Origin: an uncultured Helicobacter sp.
GTDB taxonomy: Bacteria; Campylobacterota; Campylobacteria; Campylobacterales; Helicobacteraceae
Length of the DNA stretch: 36,071 nt
Assembly: GCA_947177485.1 (NCBI GenBank)
Contig: CAMWUR010000019.1
Span: 1-36,071 of the forward strand
Direction of reading: 5' to 3'
The translations under genes were made by a program, and so were the position numbers. The notes beneath the pieces were generated by a model. That model searched no databases. It was not told the origin of the DNA and saw only the letters and a program-made list of their open reading frames with translations. This document shows positions 5,856-13,970 of this stretch, piece after piece; positions within the stretch are counted from its first letter, which is position 1, and every line of letters begins with the position of its first letter.

Positions 5856-6281
5856 ATGTTTTCTATTTCCAAACCTGTTCTCGCACTCGCAATTGCCAGC
5901 GCCTCTTTGTTCGCAGCAGACTTTTCAAAACATAGCCTCACGGAATTGCAAAATCTTGCTGGCAAAGTCAAGCCAGAAGATGCGTTTGATTATAAAATCG
6001 AGATACGTAAACGAATCGACCAAATGACCGTTAAAGATGCACGCACCTTTATGCAAGGCATTCGTGAAAATACCAGAAACGCACGAGACAGAATGACTCT
6101 TGAAGAATGGCGTAAGTACAAGTTCGCCATATGTGAAGCAAATCGAAAACAAATCGATTCGATGACGGTCGAAAAAGCACGTGAGCTTGGTGTGTTCAAA
6201 AAACAACATCTTGGGCGAGGCGAATGTGGCATGCTTAGAGAACCACTCCACAGAGAGCCACTCCACAGAGAACCACTCTAA
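5856..6281 (+). CDS. DUF1104-type periplasmic protein
   Basis: 141 residues. I chose the ATG at 5856 because AAGGAG lies six bases upstream and it starts a clean signal peptide (MFSISKPVLALAIASASLFA, cut near residue 20). The mature part begins like Helicobacter DUF1104 proteins (ADFSKHSLTELQNLAGKV..., then DYKIEIRKRI). It is small, charged and helical. Three copies of D-x-M-T-V/L-x-x-A/W-R occur exactly 23 residues apart (starting at 55, 78 and 101), reminiscent in general style of Spy/CpxP-type periplasmic chaperones, though this is only a resemblance. The C-terminus is a tandem REPLH repeat. Function unknown. It directly precedes a response regulator and sensor kinase, so a periplasmic stress or metal role monitored by that system is a reasonable inference. 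Confidence 0.75.
   Translation: MFSISKPVLALAIASASLFAADFSKHSLTELQNLAGKVKPEDAFDYKIEIRKRIDQMTVKDARTFMQGIRENTRNARDRMTLEEWRKYKFAICEANRKQIDSMTVEKARELGVFKKQHLGRGECGMLREPLHREPLHREPL
6237..6281 (+). repeat. 15-bp tandem repeat, three units, at a gene junction
   Basis: Units at 6237-6251, 6252-6266 and 6267-6281, of the form AGAGAACCACTCCAC. The second differs by one base; the third ends TAA instead of CAC and so supplies the stop codon of the DUF1104 gene. Each unit encodes REPLH. Fifteen is a multiple of three, so copy-number change alters tail length without a frameshift. Confidence 0.95.
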
Positions 6282-6282
6282 G

Positions 6283-6948
6283 ATGGCAGCAAAAATTCTG
6301 CTTGTCGAAGATGACCCCTTTTTGGCAGAAATGGTCGAAGAATTTCTAGGCGAAGAAGGGTATGATGTCTGCGTGTGTGGCAACGCAAAAACCGCGTTGC
6401 AACTCGCGCTTGAGGAGAGCTTTGATGTGTGGATTTTGGACATCAAGCTCCCAAATGGCGATGGCTTTAGCCTACTGCAAACATTGCGCAAAAAAGGCAT
6501 CGCCACGCCTGCAATTTACACCACATCGCTTGGCAGCATCCATGACTTGCAAAAGGGCTTTGAGAGCGGCTGCGATGACTATCTGCGCAAGCCCTTCGAG
6601 CTCAAAGAATTGCTGCTGCGCATTCAAAAAATCTTGCAAGCCTCGTTTAGCACGGCGCATTCTTTGTCCGAAGATTTGGGCAATGGACTACATTTTTTTT
6701 ATGCAAAAAAGGCGCTGTTTCGCAACGAACAAAAGATTCCACTCACAGGCAAAGAGCTCGATTTGCTTGCGCTGTTTTTGCAGAACAAACATCGATTTAT
6801 GAGCTACGAGGAAATTTTCACCCATCTTTGGGGCATTGAAACACCAAGCGAAATGAGCCTACGCGCTTATGTCAAACATCTGCGTGCGCTGCTTGGTAAA
6901 GAAAAAATCACAAATCATAGAGGTAGAGGCTATTGCTATGAACCCTAG
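6283..6948 (+). CDS. OmpR/PhoB-family response regulator
   Basis: 221 residues from the ATG at 6283, one base after the DUF1104 stop (TAAGATG). This start gives a normal receiver N-terminus (MAAKILLVEDD). Longer in-frame starts would add a tail read from the tandem repeats (HSTESHSTENHS) and are unlikely. Receiver residues: D10/D11 acid pair, D53 phospho-acceptor in WILDIKLPNGDG, T80/T81, and K103 in YLRKPF. The C-terminal winged helix runs from about 135 and ends KITNHRGRGYCYEP, typical of the OmpR class. There is no strong ribosome site beyond repeat-derived AGAGA, so expression probably relies on coupling to the upstream gene. It forms a pair with the overlapping kinase gene. The regulon cannot be inferred. 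Confidence 0.9.
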   Translation: MAAKILLVEDDPFLAEMVEEFLGEEGYDVCVCGNAKTALQLALEESFDVWILDIKLPNGDGFSLLQTLRKKGIATPAIYTTSLGSIHDLQKGFESGCDDYLRKPFELKELLLRIQKILQASFSTAHSLSEDLGNGLHFFYAKKALFRNEQKIPLTGKELDLLALFLQNKHRFMSYEEIFTHLWGIETPSEMSLRAYVKHLRALLGKEKITNHRGRGYCYEP

Positions 6949-8131
6949 GCAGAGTGCCGTTCTCAAGATTCTGCTCCTCTATCTCCTCTCAACCGCGCTG
7001 CTTTTGGCAATCGCGCTACCCATTATCTATTCGTTCCAAACGCAAGCGCTGTTTGAAGAAGAACGTGAACGTTTGTATAACGCGCGCGGAGCAATCTTTT
7101 TTGCCCTGCATGCGCACGCAAAAAAAGAAGGCGACATCGCATTGCTGCATGAGAATCTGCAGTCCATTAGCCAAACCTTCAACCTGCCTTTCGCGCTATT
7201 CATCGGCAATGCGCTGCTTTTTTCCAATATCGCACATCTTGACATTGCGGCACACAACCCGAAAGACTTTGAAAATCTCGGTAGAATCACGCTCATTAAT
7301 GGACGCGCCTATCTCTTTGATTCGTGGCGCAAAAAGCTCAAAAGGGCGGATTCTACCTTTATGATTCTTGAAGGTAGCGATTTGAGCGAGGAGTTTTTTG
7401 GGCTCAAAATGCGCTATCTCCTCCTTTCTGCGCTCGCATTAGCTGGCATTGGAATCGTTGCCCTTTTTCTTGTTCGCCTTGCATTGCGTCCACTCCAAAA
7501 TCAAATCCAAGCGCTCAATGATTTTCTCAAAGATTCAACGCATGAAATCAACACGCCCCTTAGTGTGATTATGATGAGTATCGAGCGGTTCAATCAAGAA
7601 GAGCTTTCACCAAAAAATAAAAAATTGTTGCATAATATTTTGATTGCCTCACGCACGATGACACATCTCTATGACGACCTCATCTACTTGAATTTTCCTA
7701 GCGCGATTCCCGATAATGCAATAGAATTTGACCTCGCACAGCTCATTCGCGAACGTGTGGACTATTTTGCTCCACATATTGCCCAAAAGCAATTGCAGCT
7801 TACGACCCAATTGCAGCCTATGCGTTGGCGCGCAAATCTACACAAAATCGCAAAGCTGCTTGATAATGTCTTGAGCAATGCCATCAAATACAACCAACCT
7901 CATGGAATCTTGTCTCTGCAACTTTGCGACCGCACATTCAGCATTTGCAACAACGGCGCTATCGACACCAAAGCACACATTTTCGAGCGCTACACCCGTG
8001 CAAACAAAGACCAAGGAGGCTTTGGCATTGGGCTTGCGATTGTGCAACAAATTTGCACAGAATATCACATCACAATCTCTGTTGAAAGCAATGAATCCAC
8101 GACCACTTTTCGCTTGGCTTTCCCGACATGA
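6938..8131 (+). CDS. sensor histidine kinase
   Basis: 397 residues from the ATG at 6938, which overlaps the regulator gene by 11 bases and has AGAGG eight bases upstream; an upstream in-frame start at 6869 would add an unrelated tail. Order: transmembrane segment about 10-32, periplasmic sensor domain about 33-157, transmembrane segment about 159-180, then a dimerisation helix with phospho-acceptor H202 in DSTHEINTPLSV. The ATPase domain has an N-box (LLDNVLSNAIKYNQ, N310/N314), an F-box (IFERYTRA) and a G2 box (GGFGIGLAIV). The G1 box, normally DxGxG, is NNGAI (338-342): the ATP-binding aspartate is replaced by asparagine. There is little room for a HAMP domain. Inferred to sense an envelope signal and phosphorylate the preceding regulator. 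Confidence 0.9.
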   Translation: MNPRQSAVLKILLLYLLSTALLLAIALPIIYSFQTQALFEEERERLYNARGAIFFALHAHAKKEGDIALLHENLQSISQTFNLPFALFIGNALLFSNIAHLDIAAHNPKDFENLGRITLINGRAYLFDSWRKKLKRADSTFMILEGSDLSEEFFGLKMRYLLLSALALAGIGIVALFLVRLALRPLQNQIQALNDFLKDSTHEINTPLSVIMMSIERFNQEELSPKNKKLLHNILIASRTMTHLYDDLIYLNFPSAIPDNAIEFDLAQLIRERVDYFAPHIAQKQLQLTTQLQPMRWRANLHKIAKLLDNVLSNAIKYNQPHGILSLQLCDRTFSICNNGAIDTKAHIFERYTRANKDQGGFGIGLAIVQQICTEYHITISVESNESTTTFRLAFPT

Positions 8132-10128: not shown

Positions 10129-11208
10129 TCATTTTCCTGCTGCAAGATTTTCAAAATATTCTTTGTCCGCAAGCTCAACTTCTTGCACAAAACGGGCAAT
10201 CAGCTCATCGCCGCGCAAACGACACAACACTTCGCCTTTTTTGATAATCAGCCCGCTACCTTTGCCAAACGCAATCGCAATATCGGCACTCTTTGCCTCA
10301 CCCAACGCATTCACAGCACAACCCATCACCGAGACATGCAACGGCGCTTTGATGTGTGTAAGATTCTGCTTGATTTTCTCGAGCGAACCGATGAGGTCTG
10401 CCTCGATTCGCCCGCATGTGGGGCAGGAGACATAATAAATGCCTTCTTGCTGACGTCCGGAAAATTTCAGAATCGACTTTGCCACTTGCACTTCTTCTTC
10501 AAGCGAACCCGTGATAGAAACGCGCATTGTATCGCCGATTCCTTCCATGAGCAGCAATCCAAGCGCCATAGAACTCTTGATAGATGAATCAAACAATGTC
10601 CCAGCCTCCGTAACACCCAGATGAAATGGATAGGGCACAAGCGGGCGCAACGTCCGATATGCAGCGATTGTTCGTGGCACATCGCTCGCCTTGAGTGAGA
10701 CTTTGAGCGTTGTGAAACCGAAATCCTCGAGCAGTTTGACATTATAGAGCGCTGATTGCACCATTCCTTCGGGCGTGGGTCCATATTTTTTTTCAAATTG
10801 AGATTCGAGACTGCCCGCGTTCACGCCGATTCGGATTGGAATCTGATGGTCTTTGCAAGCTTCAACAACGGCTTTAATTTTATCTTTCGAGCCAATATTT
10901 CCCGGATTGATACGAATGCAATCGACAAAAGGCGCGGCAGCAAGTGCGAGCTTGTAGCGAAAGTGAATGTCGGCGACAAGCGGAATCGTGATTTGTGCGC
11001 GAAGCTGTTGTAGAGCTTTTGCGTCTTCCTCATCACTCACCGCAACGCGCACAATGTCACAACCTGCAAACGTAAGTCTATCGATTTGTGCTTTGGTTGC
11101 GGAGATGTTTGCCGTTTTGGTAAAAGTCATTGATTGCACAGAAATCGGTGCATCTCCGCCAATGGCAACAGAACCAACATGGATTTGTTTGGTTTGGTAT
11201 CTCTGCAT
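10129..11208 (-). CDS. ispG: 4-hydroxy-3-methylbut-2-enyl diphosphate synthase (IspG/GcpE)
   Basis: 359 residues. [4Fe-4S] enzyme of the non-mevalonate (MEP) isoprenoid pathway, converting MEcPP to HMBPP. TIM-barrel part with QSMT near residue 25 and [12 protein letters not shown] near 78-90. The cluster ligands are C262 and C265 in SCPTCGR, and C297 in VMGCAVN. The last motif reads [11 protein letters not shown], where many bacteria have NGPGEA. The ATG at 11208 has a strong G-rich ribosome site immediately upstream. First gene of an ispG-proA operon, divergent from the receiver-domain gene. Confidence 0.95.
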
Positions 11209-11322: not shown

Positions 11323-11751
11323 ATGCAAAAGGCTACACAATTGAAAAATCTCTTTGATTTACGATTGTTGTATGTTGAAGACGATGAGCAAGCGCAGTTG
11401 GTGATGCAGCGAATCTTAAAGCGGCGCTTTTCTGACATCGTGAGTGCAAAAGACGGACAAGAGGCACTCGATGTGTTTTTGGAAGGGAATGTGGATATCG
11501 CGATTGTTGACATGAACATTCCTTTGCTCAATGGGCTAGAACTTTGCATGCGCATACGCGAGAAAAATGAGGATATGCCAATCATGATGATTACAGCCTT
11601 TGACCAATCAGACTGCCTGCTTAAAGCACTCGAGATTGGTGTGGATCGATTCTTGTTCAAGCCTATCAATATGGAGATTCTAGACAGGCAGTTAAAAATA
11701 TTAGCAAGACGGGCGATACTATTCAAACAATATCTAGGAGTTGTCGTATGA
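11323..11751 (+). CDS. stand-alone CheY-like receiver domain protein
   Basis: 142 residues, essentially one receiver domain with a 10-20 residue tail at each end. Acidic pair D20/D21, phospho-acceptor D63 in AIVDMNIPLLNG, T91 in MMITAF, and K113 in FLFKPI: all residues needed for phosphorylation are present. The classical CheY Tyr106 position is phenylalanine (RFLFKP). No output domain. The stop overlaps the next start (ATGA, 11748-11751), so it is translationally coupled to the propeller protein, its most likely partner. No kinase gene is adjacent; phosphate must come from a kinase elsewhere. It is not evidently the chemotaxis CheY itself. Confidence 0.9.
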   Translation: MQKATQLKNLFDLRLLYVEDDEQAQLVMQRILKRRFSDIVSAKDGQEALDVFLEGNVDIAIVDMNIPLLNGLELCMRIREKNEDMPIMMITAFDQSDCLLKALEIGVDRFLFKPINMEILDRQLKILARRAILFKQYLGVVV

Positions 11752-13970
11752 TTCCACTTTTGCATCGAACGAGAGTTACGGGGAGTATTGTCAGTTGCAC
11801 GATTGCTTCTGACTCAGATAAAATTTTTATGATGGATAATCTCTTTCATTTTTACGAGCTAGATACTGAAGATTTATCTTTTACCAAAAGCATACAGCTC
11901 TTGAAAGACGCAAAAGGGCGGCACAAATTCACACGTTCACTCTCGACTTCAGCACAAGGTTACCTATTTATTTCTCCAAGCAAAAGTTCCACAGGAGTCG
12001 TTCTGCGCGACAATAAAACTGTCATCAAAATTGCAAGCCTTAAATGGCACAAAGCGAGTATTAGTTCATCGCAATTTTCCCCAAATGGACAATATATCGC
12101 CACAGGTGGTGAAGACGGCAAAACCTTTATATTTCAGCTCCCAAGCCTCAAGCTTGCCAGCTCTCTGCCCCCATGCCCAGATTATATCTCGGCTGTTGTG
12201 TTTGACAAAACAGACGAAAAATTTGCATCGGCAAGCTTTGATGGTGTGATTACAATTTTCGACCTTGAAGTGGGGCATATTACAGACACTGTCGAAGTCG
12301 AATCGGTTGTTGAAGATGGTATTTTCATCAATGATGGCAATCAATTCTTTTTTGCGTGTCGCGATGGAAAAGCAGGAATCTACAATCTCGAAACAAAACA
12401 AATCACCACTAAAGAACTCGCCAAAGAATGGTTCACACGCGTCCAAACAACACCTGATGACCAATTTATTATTTTGGGCACAAAATCGAATCTGCTTTAT
12501 ATCGTTCGGCTTGAAGATTTTGAGATTCTCCACATGCTTCCACTCGAACACAATGGCGTTTCAGCGCTCGAACTTGGAATGGATAAGCTCATTGTCGCTT
12601 TCATTGATGGCTATGTTGAATTTTATAATCTCAAAAAATCGCTCGATACCTTTCAAGGACTCATTGACGAAGGCAAACTCTTTGATGCTATCAAGCTCAC
12701 AAAAGACGAGAATATCTTCCTAAGCCTCTTGCCTGTTTATACCAAAGCAATCGAAAAACAATGGAAAATCACACTCAAAGAAGCGATTGATTTACTCGCA
12801 ACAAATAAATTCCAAGAAGCCGTGAGTTTGGTGCATCCCTTTATGGACGACAAGCGCAAAAAGGCAGAGTTTAGCCAATATGCCCAACAAGTCGAGGCTG
12901 TCTCGAAATTCTGCGATGCGTGGGAATCCAAAGATGTTGTTACGGCATACAAAATCGCCGAGCAAACGCCTGAAGTCAAAAAGCTGCCTTTCTATGATAT
13001 GCTCGAGGAATATTTCTTGCAAGTTTTCAATGCGGCAAAAAAACTGCTCATCATCGATATGAACGCAAACTTACCCAAAGCGCAGGCGCTGCTCAAACCC
13101 TTTTTGAATGTCAAGAGCAAAAAAGATGTTGCCTATTCGCTACTCAAAGAATCCAAACGTTTTTATCAAGCAGACATGTTGCTCAAAGAGCGCAAATTTG
13201 CCGAATTTTTCAAACTTGCCGAGAAATTTCCTATGCTCAAACAAACCAACAGCTATGACAAAGCAATGTATATGATTCCGCAAGTCATCGACCGAATCAA
13301 TCATCTTATTAGTAACAAAAAATATGAAAAGGCTGTCGAGCTTTCAACGTTTCTTTCGACACTTGTTCCATTCAAAGATGTTGGAGCAGAAAACCTCCGT
13401 CTGATTGAGCACCAACAAAGTTTTTTGGGCGCAATCGATGGGCAAGACATCAAAAAAGCCTATGACCTAGCACTGCAAGAACCGCGACTGCAAGCGATGC
13501 CTGAATATACAGAGCTCAACAATACTTTTAAAAATTTGGCAAAAGAAGCCATGAACCTCGCAGGTGAAGGACAAAGCAACAAAGTGATTGACTTGCTCAA
13601 TCCCTACTTTGAAATCGAATACTGGAAAGATAAAATCGCCTCGATTATCAAAATTTCCTATCTCTATGAGCTCGATAATGCCGCACAAAACAAAGCCGCC
13701 TATTCCGATGTGAATTGGAAAAAATCTGTGGGTGTCTATCTCGACCGATTTGGGCTTGATGAGGAAATCTCGAAAATTTGTGAATCGCATGGACTTATGG
13801 ACTGCCTTGCTGACATCGACAAAGGCGATCCAAAAGGTTATCTCTCCCTGCCCTACACCTACACCGTGCTCATTCGCGATGCCGAGAGCGGATTCAACAC
13901 CGCTGGAGGCGGCGACCCTAGCACATCAATGGCTGATATTGACGCATTATTGGCAGAACACGAAGAATAA
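11748..13970 (+). CDS. WD40-type beta-propeller plus alpha-helical repeat protein with FliM-like tail
   Basis: 740 residues, no signal peptide or membrane segment, so probably cytoplasmic. Residues about 10-300 are WD40-like blades (SPNGQYIATGGEDGKTFIF, then FASASFDGVITIFDL). From about 345 to 645 the protein is helical, with a tandem repeat of about 85 residues. Motif A (A-x-x-L-x-x-P-F, then charged KKD) occurs at 358, 445, 529 and 613; motif B (Y/F-x-L/I-A-x-x-x-P) at 401, 488 and 572. The C-terminus is Gly/Ser-rich and ends MADIDALLAEHEE, resembling the FliM N-terminal CheY-binding peptide. It is coupled by a 4-base overlap to the receiver gene and followed by a HIT gene. I do not recognise a characterised homologue; a scaffold whose binding is set by the receiver is inference. 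Confidence 0.8.
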   Translation: MIPLLHRTRVTGSIVSCTIASDSDKIFMMDNLFHFYELDTEDLSFTKSIQLLKDAKGRHKFTRSLSTSAQGYLFISPSKSSTGVVLRDNKTVIKIASLKWHKASISSSQFSPNGQYIATGGEDGKTFIFQLPSLKLASSLPPCPDYISAVVFDKTDEKFASASFDGVITIFDLEVGHITDTVEVESVVEDGIFINDGNQFFFACRDGKAGIYNLETKQITTKELAKEWFTRVQTTPDDQFIILGTKSNLLYIVRLEDFEILHMLPLEHNGVSALELGMDKLIVAFIDGYVEFYNLKKSLDTFQGLIDEGKLFDAIKLTKDENIFLSLLPVYTKAIEKQWKITLKEAIDLLATNKFQEAVSLVHPFMDDKRKKAEFSQYAQQVEAVSKFCDAWESKDVVTAYKIAEQTPEVKKLPFYDMLEEYFLQVFNAAKKLLIIDMNANLPKAQALLKPFLNVKSKKDVAYSLLKESKRFYQADMLLKERKFAEFFKLAEKFPMLKQTNSYDKAMYMIPQVIDRINHLISNKKYEKAVELSTFLSTLVPFKDVGAENLRLIEHQQSFLGAIDGQDIKKAYDLALQEPRLQAMPEYTELNNTFKNLAKEAMNLAGEGQSNKVIDLLNPYFEIEYWKDKIASIIKISYLYELDNAAQNKAAYSDVNWKKSVGVYLDRFGLDEEISKICESHGLMDCLADIDKGDPKGYLSLPYTYTVLIRDAESGFNTAGGGDPSTSMADIDALLAEHEE

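Follow-up and report, generated by a model that had tools for sequence, protein, structure and literature searches.

The C-terminus of CheZ and the N-terminus of FliM bind CheY at its alpha4-beta5-alpha5 region. In FliM, the motif LSQxEIDALL binds phosphorylated CheY (CheY~P) (PMC6700473, PMC9126983), and one face of CheY is common to the FliM and CheZ peptides (PMC3774744). Loss of the C-terminal region of Helicobacter pylori CheZ abolishes its phosphatase function (PMC11237671), and Vibrio cholerae CheY4, whose differences include the lack of a K119 equivalent, fails to bind FliM (PMC3774744).

The locus described here joins a stand-alone receiver to a WD40-propeller/alpha-solenoid protein that ends in a helix reminiscent of these peptides. 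Receivers, WD40 proteins and CheY-docking peptides are each of known kinds. In the open-access papers searched, we found no description of the WD40 family or of the receiver-WD40 pair, nor of the combination of receiver, WD40 protein and tail, the input domain reported below or its confinement to WD40 loci. Like the CheY-binding peptide of CheZ (E. coli; H. pylori-type), the tail is helical, C-terminal and flexibly tethered, and its core is D-I-[DE]-[AS]-L-[LI], but it sits on a WD40-solenoid protein that has no phosphatase region, and the LGG end is missing. It shares the [DE]IDALL core, disordered tether and helix of the FliM N-terminal motif and differs in being C-terminal, in having no equivalents of L6 and Q8, and in belonging to a protein that is not part of the C-ring. 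The receiver resembles CheY and V. cholerae CheY4 in its complete phosphorylation site and lack of an output domain; unlike CheY, it is coupled to a WD40 gene and lacks the FliM-contact lysines of CheY. We consider, with a probability of about 0.5, that the pair represents a lineage-specific version of a two-gene signaling unit of the Campylobacterota, in which one genus gained a docking tail of the CheZ/FliM type.

The receiver gene and its WD40-solenoid neighbor

The window (the whole stretch of DNA analyzed, 36,071 nucleotides) is contig 19 of a 2.04-Mb Helicobacter genome (G000). Relatives of the same genus in the genome collection were Helicobacter sp. 15-1451 (G004), a Helicobacteraceae MAG (G002) and two Helicobacter MAGs (G003 and G001). 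Features of the locus are collected in Table 1.

Table 1. Features of the receiver-WD40 locus (positions in the window).
Feature	Position	Strand	Remarks
ispG (GcpE), divergent upstream neighbor	10129..11208	-	also flanks the pair in G011 (L040)
Stand-alone CheY-like receiver, 142 aa	11323..11751	+	ORF, Pfam; phosphoacceptor D63
WD40-propeller + alpha-solenoid protein, 740 aa	11748..13970	+	ATGA overlap with receiver gene
WD40 beta-propeller, residues 1-295	11748..12632	+	27 model strands, consistent with seven blades
Alpha-solenoid, residues 299-690	12642..13817	+	AlphaFold2 model
Disordered Gly/Ser-rich linker, residues 713-727	13884..13928	+	cannot be aligned between genus species
C-terminal helix MADIDALLAEHEE, candidate CheZ/FliM-type docking peptide	13929..13967	+	DIDALL at 13935-13952

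A preliminary description of this DNA had proposed a receiver with all phosphorylation residues whose gene overlaps, by ATGA, that of a 740-residue protein, and the open reading frames, Pfam matches and genus-invariant residues agree with it. The receiver frame ends in GTATGA, the ATGA of which starts the 740-codon WD40 gene. Its product matched the Response_reg domain (9.8e-25; 87.3 bits against a cut-off of 30.2), and residues E19/D20/D21, D63, T91, F110 and K113 were all present and invariant within the genus. With the acid pair, Asp, Thr and Lys in place and the domain score above the cut-off, the protein belongs to the receiver domain family, and its predicted structure had the usual alternating fold (pLDDT 84.9, from an alignment of four sequences).

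The AlphaFold2 model of the WD40 protein (27 relatives; mean pLDDT 88.9) consisted of strands to residue ~295 followed by helices from 299 to 690. Toward the protein end, pLDDT was below 50 at residues 713-726, and a helix at 728-739 (~59) held DIDALL at 730-735. Together with the WD40 repeats found by Pfam (PF00400, 41.9 bits against a cut-off of 27), the model upheld the layout first suggested, in which a propeller precedes an alpha-repeat rod, a linker and DIDALL. Repeats above the cut-off and a modeled propeller place the N-terminal part among WD40 propellers, for which Foldseek returned matches such as G-beta and WDR5. These confident matches were confined to the propeller, and Foldseek found no homologue of the whole chain. 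A likeness to eukaryotic coat and scaffold proteins had also been suggested. It holds for the architecture and not for propeller and solenoid together, for which the Foldseek TM-score on the query was ~0.36, and the longer alignments had an rmsd above 14 A. No C-ring domains were found in the WD40 protein, and its tail lacks the LSQ of the full LSQxEIDALL motif, so the protein is not a FliM.

Downstream, the WD40 gene is followed by a gene for a HIT-domain protein. The preliminary statement that no kinase is adjacent is correct for the window, where the nearest kinase (6869-8128, 3 kb upstream of the pair) is the partner of its own receiver-DNA-binding gene, but it does not extend to G058 (L046), in which a hybrid kinase precedes a 129-aa receiver and the WD40 gene. 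The kinase in the window forms with its overlapping OmpR-type regulator a complete two-component pair (6181-8131) that is separate from the receiver-WD40 pair.

Receiver-WD40 loci in the Campylobacterota and the C-domain of the input proteins

The WD40 protein belongs to a family of ~700-aa Campylobacterota proteins, including a paralogue in the same genome, that have a propeller and helical solenoid and are ~29-43% identical across genera; unlike the window protein, the others have no tail and mostly no adjoining receiver. The family was found in 166 of 399 sampled genomes of the order. Among the loci read, 20 had a receiver gene directly upstream on the same strand, five of them in the window's genus (receivers of 142-143 aa). 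Nine were in family f20 (upstream proteins of 428-439 aa, eight with a 25-nt overlap) and four in family f16 (268-271 aa). The others were G058 and G011, in which a 430-aa receiver-PAS-C-domain protein overlaps a WD40 gene by ATGA. We take G011 to be probably Wolinella, as its chromosome of 2,110,355 bp fits Wolinella succinogenes. The order of a divergent ispG followed by receiver(-PAS) and WD40 genes is common to G011 and the window's genome, which indicates that these are the same locus.

The preliminary description had looked to orthologues that keep the pair and lack the tail as the case against its docking proposal, and such orthologues exist in G011, the nine f20 loci, the four f16 loci and G058, with receivers that are, except in G058, fused to further domains. 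Since receivers precede tail-less WD40 members in four lineages outside the genus, the pairing needs no tail, and from this distribution of sequences we conclude that the pair is older than the tail. Most WD40-family genes had no upstream receiver, and in many Helicobacter species they lie beside ispG, gltX or other housekeeping genes. The basic role of the scaffold requires neither the receiver nor the tail, since most Helicobacter orthologues lack both. These solitary copies also fit the idea that the pair is accidental, the two proteins acting apart and the overlap reflecting only the compactness of the genomes. We regard this as very improbable, because WD40 genes preceded by a receiver fall at no fewer than four separate positions in the WD40 family tree (FastTree), and because a domain of the input proteins occurs solely beside WD40-family genes. 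The receiver tree neither shows nor excludes a single origin of all WD40-linked receivers.

That domain, which we refer to as the C-domain, is a C-terminal stretch of ~125 aa common to the upstream proteins, with or without a preceding receiver and PAS, the usual upstream partner of the WD40 gene being [receiver]-[PAS]-C-domain. Examples were found in at least seven families of the order (L040, L072, L075, L077, L253, L257 and others). The C-domain had no Pfam match (residues 124-268 of L253 were unmatched). A search of 40 genomes with a C-domain profile (A6) gave 25 matches at E<=1e-5, all within ~1.25 kb of a WD40-family gene. In 21 the domain was encoded immediately before the WD40 gene on the same strand; two were tandem copies one gene further up, one was on the opposite strand and one lay downstream of a second WD40 gene. 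Three matches weaker than E 1e-5 were not adjacent to WD40 genes, in so far as their surroundings could be checked. Built from neighbors of WD40 genes, the profile is biased toward them, yet equally strong matches elsewhere did not appear, so that the confinement is still informative.

Based on these data, the receiver/PAS and WD40 genes very probably constitute a two-gene signaling unit. In such a unit the upstream input protein would be made together with the cytoplasmic WD40-propeller/alpha-solenoid scaffold and would set the state of the scaffold, a control that the coupling of the genes suggests. At the pair locus of the window's genus no significant copy of the C-domain was found, and the input protein is the receiver alone. 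The bare receiver of the window would thus be a pared-down form of a receiver-PAS-C-domain input protein. The unit so defined pairs a WD40-solenoid scaffold with an input protein that has a receiver and/or PAS and ends in an unannotated domain. It spans seven or more families of the order and is not in Pfam as such.

Other WD40 loci varied in their surroundings. An apparent tandem of receiver, truncated WD40, receiver and WD40 genes was present in a 58%-complete MAG (L037 1208-4586, G001:C84), and may reflect duplication or faulty assembly. The paralogue in the window's own genome (L056 3956-6097, C7) has minD-minE-polysaccharide deacetylase on one side and a dprA-like gene on the other. In G004 (L059) it is succeeded by a ruvX-like gene, and the gene order around the paralogue recurs in other Helicobacteraceae. 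Another paralogue (L048 1405-6148, G019) is two genes from, and divergent to, an NrfA-like multihaem cytochrome gene.

Conservation of the C-terminal tail

The WD40 proteins of G003, G002 and G004 were 92, 69 and 66% identical to that of the window, respectively. DIDALL was invariant in these four genomes, which are the same-genus genomes with a complete protein, and its codons varied: GAT ATT GAC GCA TTA TTG; GAC ATT GAC GCC CTG CTA; GAT ATT GAT GCA CTT TTA; and GAT ATT GAC GCA CTT TTA. The tails of the genus read STSMADIDALLAEHEE, STSEVDIDALLEEANRS and STDEVDIDALLQEAEI. Between the window's genome and G003, the last 13 codons had five silent and no amino-acid changes, while the 16 linker codons had six silent and three amino-acid changes. 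As DIDALL is kept through silent changes while the linker diverges, the tail is a real, selected element of the protein.

Within the window's genome DIDALL is encoded once and EIDALL three times, one of these in FliM. Residue counts predict ~0.1 chance occurrences per genome of a protein with [DE]IDALL among its last 20 residues, if a genome codes for ~600,000 residues and contains two incidental [DE]IDALL sites. It is the conservation of the motif, and not this estimate, that settles that the tail is not due to chance. Among 19 coding-pattern sites in the genome, no other C-terminal IDALL tail was convincing, and a search of the PDB with the tail peptide gave no match, the peptide being too short for an informative search.

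Conservation of DIDALL, which the preliminary description suggested checking across the Campylobacterota, was confined to the genus. In all WD40-family members outside the genus the tail was absent, including the nearest, that of G011 (43%), which ends SSVIVRFEGD. The tail would have been added to the old C-terminus in the ancestor of the genus, or lost once in G011. Because it arose once, in one genus, there are no independent replicates. A relaxed motif, looked for in the C-terminal 25 residues of 130 WD40-family proteins, gave four matches outside the genus against one expected. Those of L045, L221 and L272 were rejected as tails since they sit in the protein core, and only that of L052 (EDFDVDSLV) is in a real extension. 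Two members in family f5 (L052 3950-6133 and L055 3980-6169) have their own C-terminal extensions, ending EDFDVDSLV and ENFDVSKLI, which are possibly a second, independent docking-like tail.

Candidate ligands of the tail

The tail carries the FliM/CheZ-type docking core [DE]-[IVL]-[DE]-x-L-[LI] on a disordered tether at the protein end, and is likely a receiver-docking peptide. The FliM of the same genome (gene at G000:C34) begins MADILSQEEIDALL, and its CheZ begins MTQEELDSLM and ends SDDDIESLIATLG (fuller C-terminus, SDDDIESLIATLGGGHH). The CheZ of G002 and G004 ends SEDDIEALIASLG (SEDDIEALIASLGGG plus two or three residues). We hypothesize that in this genus the scaffold gained a flexible linker and a helix of the CheZ/FliM class of CheY-binding peptides.

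Two receivers come into question as the ligand, and they were compared at the CheY-FliM contact positions of E. coli (PMC3774744, Table 3). The CheY of the genus keeps K92, Y106 and K119, is hydrophobic at the I95 and A99 positions, and is without K91 and K122. The neighboring receiver has S/T for K92, F for Y106 and Q/H for K119, and the K91 and K122 equivalents are also replaced, so that of the contact set it keeps only the hydrophobic residues (L, L, F). It is thus not a CheY; the separate CheY of the genome has all three of K92, Y106 and K119. Since the genome's own CheY keeps K92 and K119 and the neighbor has neither, CheY~P is no less likely a ligand than the neighboring receiver.

The tail could well bind CheY~P, and the most likely course would be that the helix captures phosphorylated CheY and so links the chemotaxis signal to the scaffold. 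More tentatively, the WD40-solenoid protein may be a non-flagellar effector of CheY~P, its CheZ-like tail bringing the chemotaxis signal away from the motor and into a second scaffold, one controlled by receiver/PAS proteins. If the tail does bind CheY~P, these bacteria would have a chemotaxis output besides the motor, and FliM and CheZ would have the tail as a competitor.

That DIDALL docks the neighboring receiver, as first proposed, is our second choice. The FliM-like tail behind this proposal is real and selected, but the idea that it explains the pairing is not supported, and the neighbor is without K92 and K119. The helix would here hold the receiver, taking over from the lost PAS/C-domain the task of connecting input and scaffold, with phosphorylation of D63 switching the docking. 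Loss of the PAS/C-domain and gain of the tail coincide in the window's genus, as would be understandable were the tail a substitute for the lost link to the receiver. The receiver also keeps a hydrophobic alpha4-beta5 groove (L99, L103, F110), its beta5 DRFLFKPI is genus-invariant, and basic residues at 122 (R/K) and 125 (K) adjoin the K119 position. Against this, the equivalents of K91, K92, K119 and K122 are all replaced, for which CheY4 offers a precedent (PMC3774744); binding through another receiver surface would need no exact FliM-type core; and elsewhere receivers pair with tail-less WD40 proteins. We therefore regard the neighbor as a doubtful ligand and this mode of docking as rather unlikely.

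A ligand other than CheY or the neighbor is unlikely. It is improbable, too, that the tail binds no receiver and instead caps the solenoid, self-assembles or binds an unrelated partner, with its likeness to FliM a convergence of short acidic amphipathic helices. Six residues are few, about 0.1 C-terminal matches per genome arise by chance, and in the AlphaFold2 model the helix, which follows a disordered linker, has low confidence. The match nonetheless takes in the Asp that is invariant in the CheY-contact core as well as both of its Leu residues, and it resembles the C-terminal peptide of CheZ in the same genomes.

In the CheZ proteins of the genus (L301-L304), each end was itself observed to carry a FliM-like peptide, the N-terminal one reading MTQEELDSLMN and the C-terminal one [SE]DDIE[AS]LIA.
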